DNA of 64,000 nucleotides from Athalassotoga saccharophila (GTDB taxonomy: Bacteria; Thermotogota; Thermotogae; Mesoaciditogales; Mesoaciditogaceae): positions 713,501 to 777,500 of the forward strand of contig NZ_AP019551.1 of assembly GCF_009936215.1 (NCBI RefSeq). The letters run 5' to 3'. The notes below the pieces were generated by a model. The model worked only from the letters and a program-made list of their open reading frames with translations. It searched no databases and was not told the origin of the DNA. The position numbers and the translations under genes were made by a program. Of this stretch, positions 61,984-62,982 are shown in pieces. Numbering within the stretch: position 1 is the first letter of the stretch; every line of letters starts with the position of its first letter.

Positions 61984-62007
61984 AAACACCCCATCTTTGG
62001 ATGGGGT
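61982..62007 (-). terminator. Terminator downstream of tRNA-Ser
   Basis: Stem ACCCCATC/GATGGGGT (61988-61995 with 62000-62007), loop TTTG. On the minus strand the stem is followed by GTTTTT, so it ends tRNA-Ser transcription. On the plus strand it also lies just after the ComEA-like stop but lacks a T-run. Confidence 0.75.
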
Positions 62008-62011
62008 AAAT

Positions 62012-62100
62012 TGGCGGAGAGAGTGGGATTTGAACCCACGGAGCCTATTAAGCTCATACGCTCTCCAGGCGTACGCCTTTGACCACTCGGCCATCTCTCC
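62012..62100 (-). tRNA. tRNA-Ser (anticodon GGA)
   Basis: 89 nt including an encoded CCA. Acceptor stem GGAGAGA/TCTCTCC with discriminator G; D arm GCCGAGTGGTCAAAGGC; anticodon stem TACGC/GCGTA with loop CTGGAGA (GGA); long variable arm with stem GAGC/GCTC; T arm GTGGG-TTCAAAT-CCCAC. All pairs are good. It reads UCC and UCU. Confidence 0.96.
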
Positions 62101-62104
62101 TCAC

Positions 62105-62135
62105 AATTAAATCCCTGGCAACCAGGGATTTAATT
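62105..62135. other. Perfect 14-bp inverted repeat between the two tRNA genes
   Basis: AATTAAATCCCTGG pairs with CCAGGGATTTAATT, 3-base loop. It begins 5 bp upstream of tRNA-Ser and ends at the first base of the plus-strand promoter. It may be a processing hairpin, a terminator for the CAU tRNA transcript or an insulator for the plus-strand promoter. Confidence 0.7.
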
Positions 62136-62163
62136 TGACAAAATAGTTAAAGAGTGTTATAAT
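62135..62163 (+). promoter_or_regulatory. Perfect consensus promoter reading antisense to the CAU tRNA
   Basis: TTGACA (62135-62140), exactly 17 bp, then TATAAT (62158-62163): 12 of 12 consensus bases. Transcription would start near 62170, cross the CAU tRNA gene in antisense, and reach the small ORF at 62345 and the terminator at 62502. Confidence 0.8.
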
Positions 62164-62191
62164 TTTGAAAACGTTACTTTTATTTTAACTT

Positions 62192-62267
62192 TGGTGGGCT
62201 CAGGTGGATTCGAACCATCGACCGCCCGGTTATGGGCCGGGAGCTCTACCAGCTGAGCTATGAGCCC
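62192..62267 (-). tRNA. tRNA with CAU anticodon (Met or Ile2), with unusual C33 and T-stem mismatch
   Basis: 76 nt with encoded CCA. Acceptor GGGCTCA/TGAGCCC fully paired, discriminator A; D arm GCTC/GAGC; anticodon stem CCCGG/CCGGG with loop CCCATAA. Position 33 is C where U is nearly universal in bacteria. The T stem GATGG/CCACC has an A.C mismatch. The paired first base pair argues against initiator tRNA. Elongator Met or lysidine-type Ile2 are both possible. It has its own perfect promoter. Confidence 0.85.
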
Positions 62268-62280
62268 AACAGCGTTAATT

Positions 62281-62309
62281 ATTATAAAACATTTGATTCA
62301 AATTGTCAA
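62281..62309 (-). promoter_or_regulatory. Perfect consensus promoter of the CAU tRNA
   Basis: On the minus strand TTGACA (62309-62304), 17 bp, TATAAT (62286-62281); predicted start about 7 bases before the tRNA 5' end. It faces the plus-strand promoter at 62135-62163 across the tRNA. Confidence 0.88.
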
Positions 62310-62344
62310 TAGGAATATCAAAAATGTGAGGGGTGAAACATGTT

Positions 62345-62518
62345 ATGCAAGACAATCGTGTTGATCCCGTGAAAATATTGATAGTCAAATATCCGAGGCT
62401 CCTTATAATAAAAGCCGCATTCTCGATCTTTAGCCAGCACAAAAAAATAGACCTTTTCGCACTTGAAGACAGCATAAAAAAAGAATTTGAAAGGGAAAAT
62501 CAAAAGAGAGCCTTTTAG
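62345..62518 (+). CDS. Small protein, unknown, in the unit antisense to the CAU tRNA
   Basis: 57 aa from ATG 62345 (GTG 62333 would add four). The sequence is basic with a hydrophobic centre (VKILIVKYPRLLIIKAAFSI) and a charged C-terminal helix (ALEDSIKKEFEREN). GAGGGG at 62328-62333 could be a distant RBS. Not recognised. Support comes from a complete unit: perfect promoter upstream and a terminator whose loop contains the TAG stop. Confidence 0.55.
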   Translation: MQDNRVDPVKILIVKYPRLLIIKAAFSIFSQHKKIDLFALEDSIKKEFERENQKRAF

Positions 62519-62529
62519 GCTCTCTTTTT
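62502..62529 (+). terminator. Intrinsic terminator overlapping the 57-codon ORF stop
   Basis: Stem AAAAGAGAGCC/GGCTCTCTTTT (11 bp), loop TTTTA, ending in a T-run. The stop codon TAG is at 62516-62518, at the loop/stem junction. Confidence 0.9.
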
Positions 62530-62553
62530 ATACCGATTTAAAAGCCGCACAAT

Positions 62554-62607: not shown

Positions 62608-62982
62608 TTAAAAATTCTTCCTCTTTGGAGGAAGGTTAAATGTGGCAGTTTTATCGTCATCTTTGACGAGTTTGAGATATCTGTTTGCGGCATCTTTGGC
62701 GAGTCTTTCGATTATCGCCGGAAGATCGCTTTCTCTGATAAGGTAATCGAATCGGGGATCTTTTTTCAAATTTTCTGAGATTTCGTATTTCGTCTCGCCA
62801 TCGACATCGAGTTTAACGTCTGATGGCGTGTACTTTGCGAAGTCCTCATTTATCCTCGAAAGCAGGTCAATGACCGTTTTTGAGAATACATCCATCACTT
62901 CTGAAGGCTTTTTTGTTTCATTCAACCTTTCTCTGTAATTTTTGGATATCTCCTTTTCTATATGTGTGTAACTGTACATCAT
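62608..62982 (-). CDS. Small protein of unknown function downstream of rsmE
   Basis: 124 aa, soluble, mostly helical and charged (YRERLNETKKPSEVMDVFSK, LPAIIERLAKDAANRYLKL). Not recognised. Two ATG codons at the start (62982, 62979). The last eight codons and the stop form the stem and T-run of a terminator. It overlaps rsmE by 4 bp. Confidence 0.72.
   Translation of the reverse strand: MMYSYTHIEKEISKNYRERLNETKKPSEVMDVFSKTVIDLLSRINEDFAKYTPSDVKLDVDGETKYEISENLKKDPRFDYLIRESDLPAIIERLAKDAANRYLKLVKDDDKTATFNLPPKRKNF
62610..62634 (-). terminator. Intrinsic terminator inside the 3' end of the hypothetical gene
   Basis: On the minus strand CTTCCTC-CAAA-GAGGAAG (62634-62617) followed by AATTTTTAA, which contains the stop codon. 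It ends the serS-rsmE unit while encoding the C-terminus. Confidence 0.82.

Follow-up and report, generated by a model that had tools for sequence, protein, structure and literature searches.

A small-protein gene of Thermotogota with a predicted mRNA leader antisense to a complete CAU tRNA gene

The locus and its tRNA

The window, a 64,000-nucleotide stretch of the Athalassotoga saccharophila genome (NZ_AP019551.1, positions 713,501 to 777,500), carries near its right-hand end a tRNA gene and a short open reading frame (ORF) that diverge from one another, together with the following elements.

61987-62008, minus strand: intrinsic terminator after tRNA-Ser (hairpin scan)
62012-62100, minus strand: tRNA-Ser(GGA), downstream of the CAU tRNA and on the same strand (ARAGORN and Rfam)
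62107-62133: perfect 12-bp hairpin that lies between the tRNA genes and abuts the antisense promoter (sequence)
62135-62163, plus strand: antisense promoter of the ORF, TTGACA-N17-TATAAT, exact at 12 of 12 positions, the -10 being extended by TG; start predicted near 62170
62171-62344, plus strand: predicted 5' leader of the small-protein mRNA, 174 nt, with the full tRNA antisense inside (placed from the promoter and ORF positions)
62192-62267, minus strand: tRNA with CAU anticodon (ARAGORN and Rfam)
62281-62309, minus strand: tRNA promoter, TTGACA-N17-TATAAT, exact at 12 of 12 positions
62328-62336, plus strand: Shine-Dalgarno sequence of the ORF, GAGGGGTGA (sequence)
62345-62518, plus strand: ORF of 57 codons plus stop, DPVKxLLxKYPRLxIIKAAF family
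62502-62529, plus strand: intrinsic terminator, a hairpin with T-run that overlaps the ORF stop codon (sequence and hairpin scan)

The -10 elements of the two promoters face each other across the CAU tRNA gene. An earlier note on this DNA had described facing promoters that match the consensus at all 12 positions with 17-nt spacers, a CAU tRNA on the minus strand, a 57-codon ORF and the terminator at 62502-62529; both promoters are indeed exact, and the other elements are present where it had placed them. The terminator stem, AAAAGAGAGCC..GGCTCTCTTTT, is symmetric and has Ts at its plus-strand end too; the hairpin scanner listed it for the minus strand only, and it could work on both strands. 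Within the locus, the Rfam gathering score was reached by the two tRNAs alone, all other hits being weak and sub-threshold. A conserved hypothetical protein of 124 aa (62608-62982, minus strand) adjoins RsmE; it also occurs at loci L032 and L033 and has no match in Pfam or NCBIfam.

Exact TTGACA-N17-TATAAT sites number only 13 in the whole 2.04-Mb genome, and two of them face each other here. Shuffling the window yields a mean of 0.01 exact sites, and a backwards control pattern of the promoter has 0 sites in the 2.04-Mb genome. A chance origin of the promoter was rejected on the basis of the shuffles, the genome count and the comparison with other tRNAs given below.

ARAGORN labels every CAU tRNA 'Met', from the anticodon alone. 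By elimination among the three CAU tRNA types found in relatives, and by its acceptor-stem pairs, the tRNA of the window is most probably tRNA-Ile2, the lysidine type that reads AUA, and not tRNA-Met. The classes in relatives are TGCGGGG (initiator), GGCGGCG (elongator-like) and GGGCTCG/A (ORF-linked); a search of the window's own assembly (91.6% complete) turned up neither the initiator nor the elongator-like CAU tRNA. Described TilS determinants are C4:G69 and C5:G68 in E. coli and G3:C70 in Burkholderia cenocepacia (PMC12514573). Of these, the window tRNA shows C4:G69 and G3:C70 and differs at the remaining pair, with U5:A68 in place of C5:G68; the elongator-like CAU tRNA has none of C4:G69, C5:G68 and G3:C70. 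U33 is nearly universal in tRNAs; the CAU tRNA of the window's genus (loci L001-L004) has C at position 33, within the loop CC-CAU-AA, and other families have U33.

A small-protein family beside the tRNA

The 57-codon ORF is a real gene of a new small-protein family under strong purifying selection, with a pooled pN of 0.06 versus a pS of 0.44 over 22 pairs. The ORF was found in 41 of 61 genomes in the first search of relatives; a profile search within the phylum Thermotogota placed it in 62 of 103 genomes, nearly always in single copy (63 copies in total, of which 62 were inspected, the copy in genome G067 being left out). A scan of genome contigs with one query sequence returned close relatives only, the closest named contig being Mesoaciditoga sp. 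ARK-11. Family members measure 50-69 aa, share the invariant residues D7, P8, Y16 and A24 (Asp-Pro, Tyr, Ala), and nearly all the relatives have a motif resembling a Shine-Dalgarno sequence ahead of the start codon.

What the protein resembles was sought at the levels of sequence and structure. Searches of Pfam, NCBIfam, PHROGs and PADLOC gave no significant match (best E = 0.007, for two members), and neither did a PDB profile search (best E = 1). A structure predicted from an alignment of four close sequences has three helices at a pLDDT of 69.7, and with this low-confidence model Foldseek found no match. A histone fold, to which yeast Mhf2 (3v9r) had been a weak lead, was rejected given its E of 1 and the lack of a match in Foldseek and Pfam. 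A defence or phage family was likewise rejected for want of a significant match in PADLOC, PHROGs and the other collections, and a type I toxin-antitoxin system, which pairs a small, hydrophobic, membrane-spanning toxin with a non-coding antisense antitoxin RNA, does not fit: the protein is charged and, by reading, lacks a long hydrophobic stretch, the opposite RNA is a tRNA, and there is no PADLOC hit.

The CAU tRNA lies divergently and directly 5' of the ORF in 61 of the 62 inspected copies (at locus L213 the ORF position comes from the profile search). The exception, L046 in genome G018, has no tRNA in the 0.7 kb up to the contig end and carries a promoter-like site right before the ORF, which would give a short leader; a promoter-like site directly upstream of a tRNA-less ORF fits the antisense promoter being the ORF's own. 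Genome G025 contains the whole unit twice (L018 and L045), each copy with its own tRNA and antisense promoter, and throughout family f10 both the ORF and the antisense promoter are gone, the CAU tRNA there following tRNA-Cys. Taken across much of Thermotogota, the arrangement appears to be a head-on gene pair with deep conservation and not a chance overlap. L032 (= L003) has an insertion of ~115 nt (~2850-2965), perhaps an insertion-sequence end, that separates the tRNA promoter from the ORF within the leader; apart from this the unit is intact.

The antisense promoter and the predicted leader

Where does transcription of the ORF begin? Using a simple weighted consensus made for this analysis, we took for each locus the highest-scoring plus-strand promoter within the first 160 nt past the tRNA 3' end. 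Each of the 60 scored loci that contain both ORF and tRNA reaches at least 8.9, a threshold picked post hoc, with the promoter lying 21-75 nt past the tRNA 3' end. The median was 10.1 and the minimum 8.9 in the first set of 41 ORF-bearing loci, and all 19 further ORF loci score at least 8.9. For 64 other tRNAs the median is 7.3 and a single one reaches 8.9; for 16 copies of the ORF-linked tRNA that lack the ORF the median is again 7.3 and none does. Mann-Whitney tests of the ORF loci gave p = 4e-18 against other tRNAs and p = 2e-9 against ORF-less copies, values that ignore relatedness among loci spanning several families. L047 was excluded from the ORF-less copies: no ORF was detected on its contig, which stops 230 nt past the tRNA, yet the promoter is kept (10.1), and counting it would bring the copies with a promoter to 1 of 17. 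L217, where the ORF occupies 473718-473867 on the minus strand and the antisense -10 ends 31 nt past the tRNA 3' end (predicted start ~24 nt past it), has a tRNA-Met-Thr-Tyr-Trp cluster next to it, whose promoter and the antisense promoter are placed back to back.

The gap between the tRNA 5' end and the start codon measures 47-177 nt (median 77) and is mostly filled by the tRNA's own promoter, which matches the consensus perfectly or nearly so in each of the 41 loci checked. In most loci the best plus-strand site within the gap scores at shuffle level (median score 7.1, median p 0.4); weak gap sites occur in a few loci of Petrotoga type, the best at 9.4 (L013). We rejected a separate ORF promoter in the gap, since candidate sites do not rise above shuffles in most loci and none is conserved. 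Given the conserved promoter past the tRNA and the lack of a conserved one in the gap, the ORF mRNA very probably starts at the antisense promoter, with a leader that would hold the entire antisense tRNA. Leaders predicted in this way are 144-271 nt long in 41 loci; the usual 5' UTR lengths in T. maritima are 11-17 and 26-32 nt (PMC3636130). The folding z of the leader, -2.3, arises because an antisense tRNA folds like a tRNA.

The earlier note had drawn a complete plus-strand unit of promoter, antisense tRNA, ORF and terminator, and had proposed looking in related genomes for both promoters and the ORF. These are conserved phylum-wide, which strongly supports the unit as predicted from sequence; among the options that the note offered, a small-protein gene with a tRNA-complementary leader is the best supported.

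Terminators bear on how far each transcript would reach into the other gene. Outside the window's genus, practically every locus has a terminator-like hairpin that separates the tRNA from the antisense promoter; in 13 of 41 loci the T-rich tail of this hairpin and the antisense -10 overlap. Within the window's genus there is no terminator hairpin between the two; on the minus strand the hairpin at 62107-62133 is not followed by a T-run, and tRNA-CAU and tRNA-Ser are therefore probably co-transcribed. This placement implies that ORF transcription would invade the tRNA gene always, whereas tRNA transcription would fully invade the ORF promoter in the window's genus only.

Interlocked transcription and related systems

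How might the two genes influence one another? We envision an excludon-like, interlocked head-on pair in which transcription of the tRNA restrains the small-protein gene, a scenario that we consider evenly poised between right and wrong. A polymerase starting at the far-side promoter would have to cross the tRNA gene and the tRNA promoter backwards before it reached the ORF, and the resulting mRNA leader would carry a complete antisense tRNA. Firing of the tRNA promoter would send polymerases head-on against those that started at the ORF promoter; in the window's genus, tRNA-derived polymerases would also run over the ORF promoter itself. The small protein might thus be made mainly when tRNA transcription slackens, as in slow growth or starvation, and the reciprocal effect on the tRNA would be modest only. 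Transcriptional interference, another option of the earlier note, plausibly follows from the geometry: with a near-perfect tRNA promoter directly against the ORF mRNA, some head-on traffic would be hard to avoid. That the strong tRNA promoter restrains the ORF by such traffic is plausible, the chances being about equal either way, and outside the window's genus the tRNA terminator before the antisense promoter would limit the reach of tRNA transcription into the ORF promoter. The excludon-like pair is favoured by the conservation of the ORF gene, its divergent position in 61 of 62 copies, the promoter at 60 of 60 loci, the absence of a gap promoter and the joint duplication; against regulation we count that physical interlocking alone would keep the gene order and that L047 keeps the promoter where no ORF was found.

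It is possible, although we lean against it, that the ORF is merely transcribed from beyond the tRNA, the genes having become interleaved in an ancestor, and that interference is slight and without a regulatory function. The order would then persist because any break would separate the ORF from its promoter, and conserved order, co-loss and joint duplication are all explained without regulation. The compactness of the T. maritima genome, with its little intergenic space (PMC3636130), and the tolerated loss of ORF and promoter in the whole of family f10 point the same way. Such a history sits less easily with a tRNA promoter that stays almost perfect directly opposite the ORF mRNA, and with leaders of 144-271 nt, unusual beside the 11-17 or 26-32 nt that are typical of T. 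maritima. The antisense promoter could also be a product of chance or a by-product of the tRNA terminator, the ORF having another promoter. The T-run overlap in some clades (the 13 of 41 loci) and the weak Petrotoga-type gap site at L013 would suit this idea, which we find scarcely credible: most clades retain a near-consensus -35 at 17-nt spacing, such a site is missing from other tRNAs, the majority of which presumably have terminators too, and no gap promoter is conserved.

Alternatively, the leader itself may be the effector. Antisense RNA controlling tRNA supply, as the earlier note had suggested, would have the leader pair with tRNA-Ile2 or its precursor, RNase III cut the duplex and AUA decoding drop, the ORF being secondary. 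The complementarity is full-length and the promoter strong, but where the ORF goes the promoter goes too while the tRNA remains, and the suggestion is thus left without direct support; moreover, mature tRNA is abundant and highly structured, and the ORF is under coding selection, and we regard such control as unlikely. A further idea links the tRNA to the codons of the ORF. AUA makes up 136 of 226 Ile codons in the family versus 101 expected from neighbouring genes, an enrichment that persists with genome and codon context controlled (odds ratio 1.9; z 4.1 for all sequences, which are related, and 2.7 for 21 representatives). An AUA-rich ORF might then sense charged tRNA-Ile2 encoded opposite its own leader, slow decoding altering the fate of the leader or mRNA. 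However, GAA and TTA/CTA are enriched in the ORF as well (AAA, AGA, GTA and GCA are not), so that the AUA excess may reflect no more than a small gene's weak codon adaptation; AUA already accounts for 57% of Ile codons in the window, and no attenuator was identified in the leader. We consider this feedback very improbable. A phylum-wide translational sensor, in which an AUA-rich small-protein mRNA running antisense across the gene of the AUA-decoding tRNA would join tRNA-Ile2 output, AUA decoding and the small protein in one feedback loop, is in our view doubtful, though somewhat less remote.

The excludon-like pair, if real, would be of a known kind (PMC7154746); we found no description of such a unit with a tRNA as partner or with conservation throughout a phylum. 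The earlier note had known of no described system, which holds for a tRNA-based one in that we found none, and does not hold for long antisense 5' leaders as such. The text of the excludon review (PMC7154746) does not mention tRNA, and the open-access literature yielded no paper describing an mRNA leader that is antisense to a tRNA. A small-protein family unmatched in Pfam, NCBIfam and PADLOC marks most Thermotogota lineages, and a protein gene whose predicted leader contains an exact tRNA antisense has been kept across families.

Several systems share parts of this anatomy. In mammals, Polr3e harbours a nested, antisense, Pol III-transcribed MIR element and is reported to be affected by it through transcriptional interference (PMC5358760); there too a conserved small-RNA-type unit is nested antisense in a gene, but the system is eukaryotic and involves two different polymerases, and the analogy is one of mechanism only. 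Streptomyces ambofaciens has two dedicated antisense RNAs to tRNAs, with a putative promoter of their own (PMC8388888). Like them, the transcript predicted here is bacterial and antisense to a tRNA; they are listed as non-coding and come from one species, whereas ours would be a conserved mRNA. The noncontiguous operon menE-menC-MW1733-ytkD of S. aureus, for which collision and RNase III cutting are described (PMC7154746), likewise has an oppositely transcribed gene within another transcription unit; in our case a tRNA gene is nested in the predicted leader and one short ORF follows.

The closest relative is the excludon, or long antisense 5' UTR, of Listeria and other bacteria, for which interference and RNase III have been proposed as mechanisms (reviewed in PMC7154746). 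Unlike there, the partner is a tRNA gene and not a protein gene, the overlap covers the entire partner and its promoter, the arrangement is conserved across the phylum, and mutual exclusion of the two genes is putative. The geometry is otherwise that of an excludon: the neighbours are divergent, the predicted leader runs antisense over the tRNA gene from a promoter present at 60 of 60 scored loci, and the long transcript would code for protein, a 57-aa product under purifying selection. As in an excludon, mRNA and antisense RNA would be one predicted molecule and, if transcriptional interference links both genes, the activity of the tRNA promoter would directly set the output of the protein.
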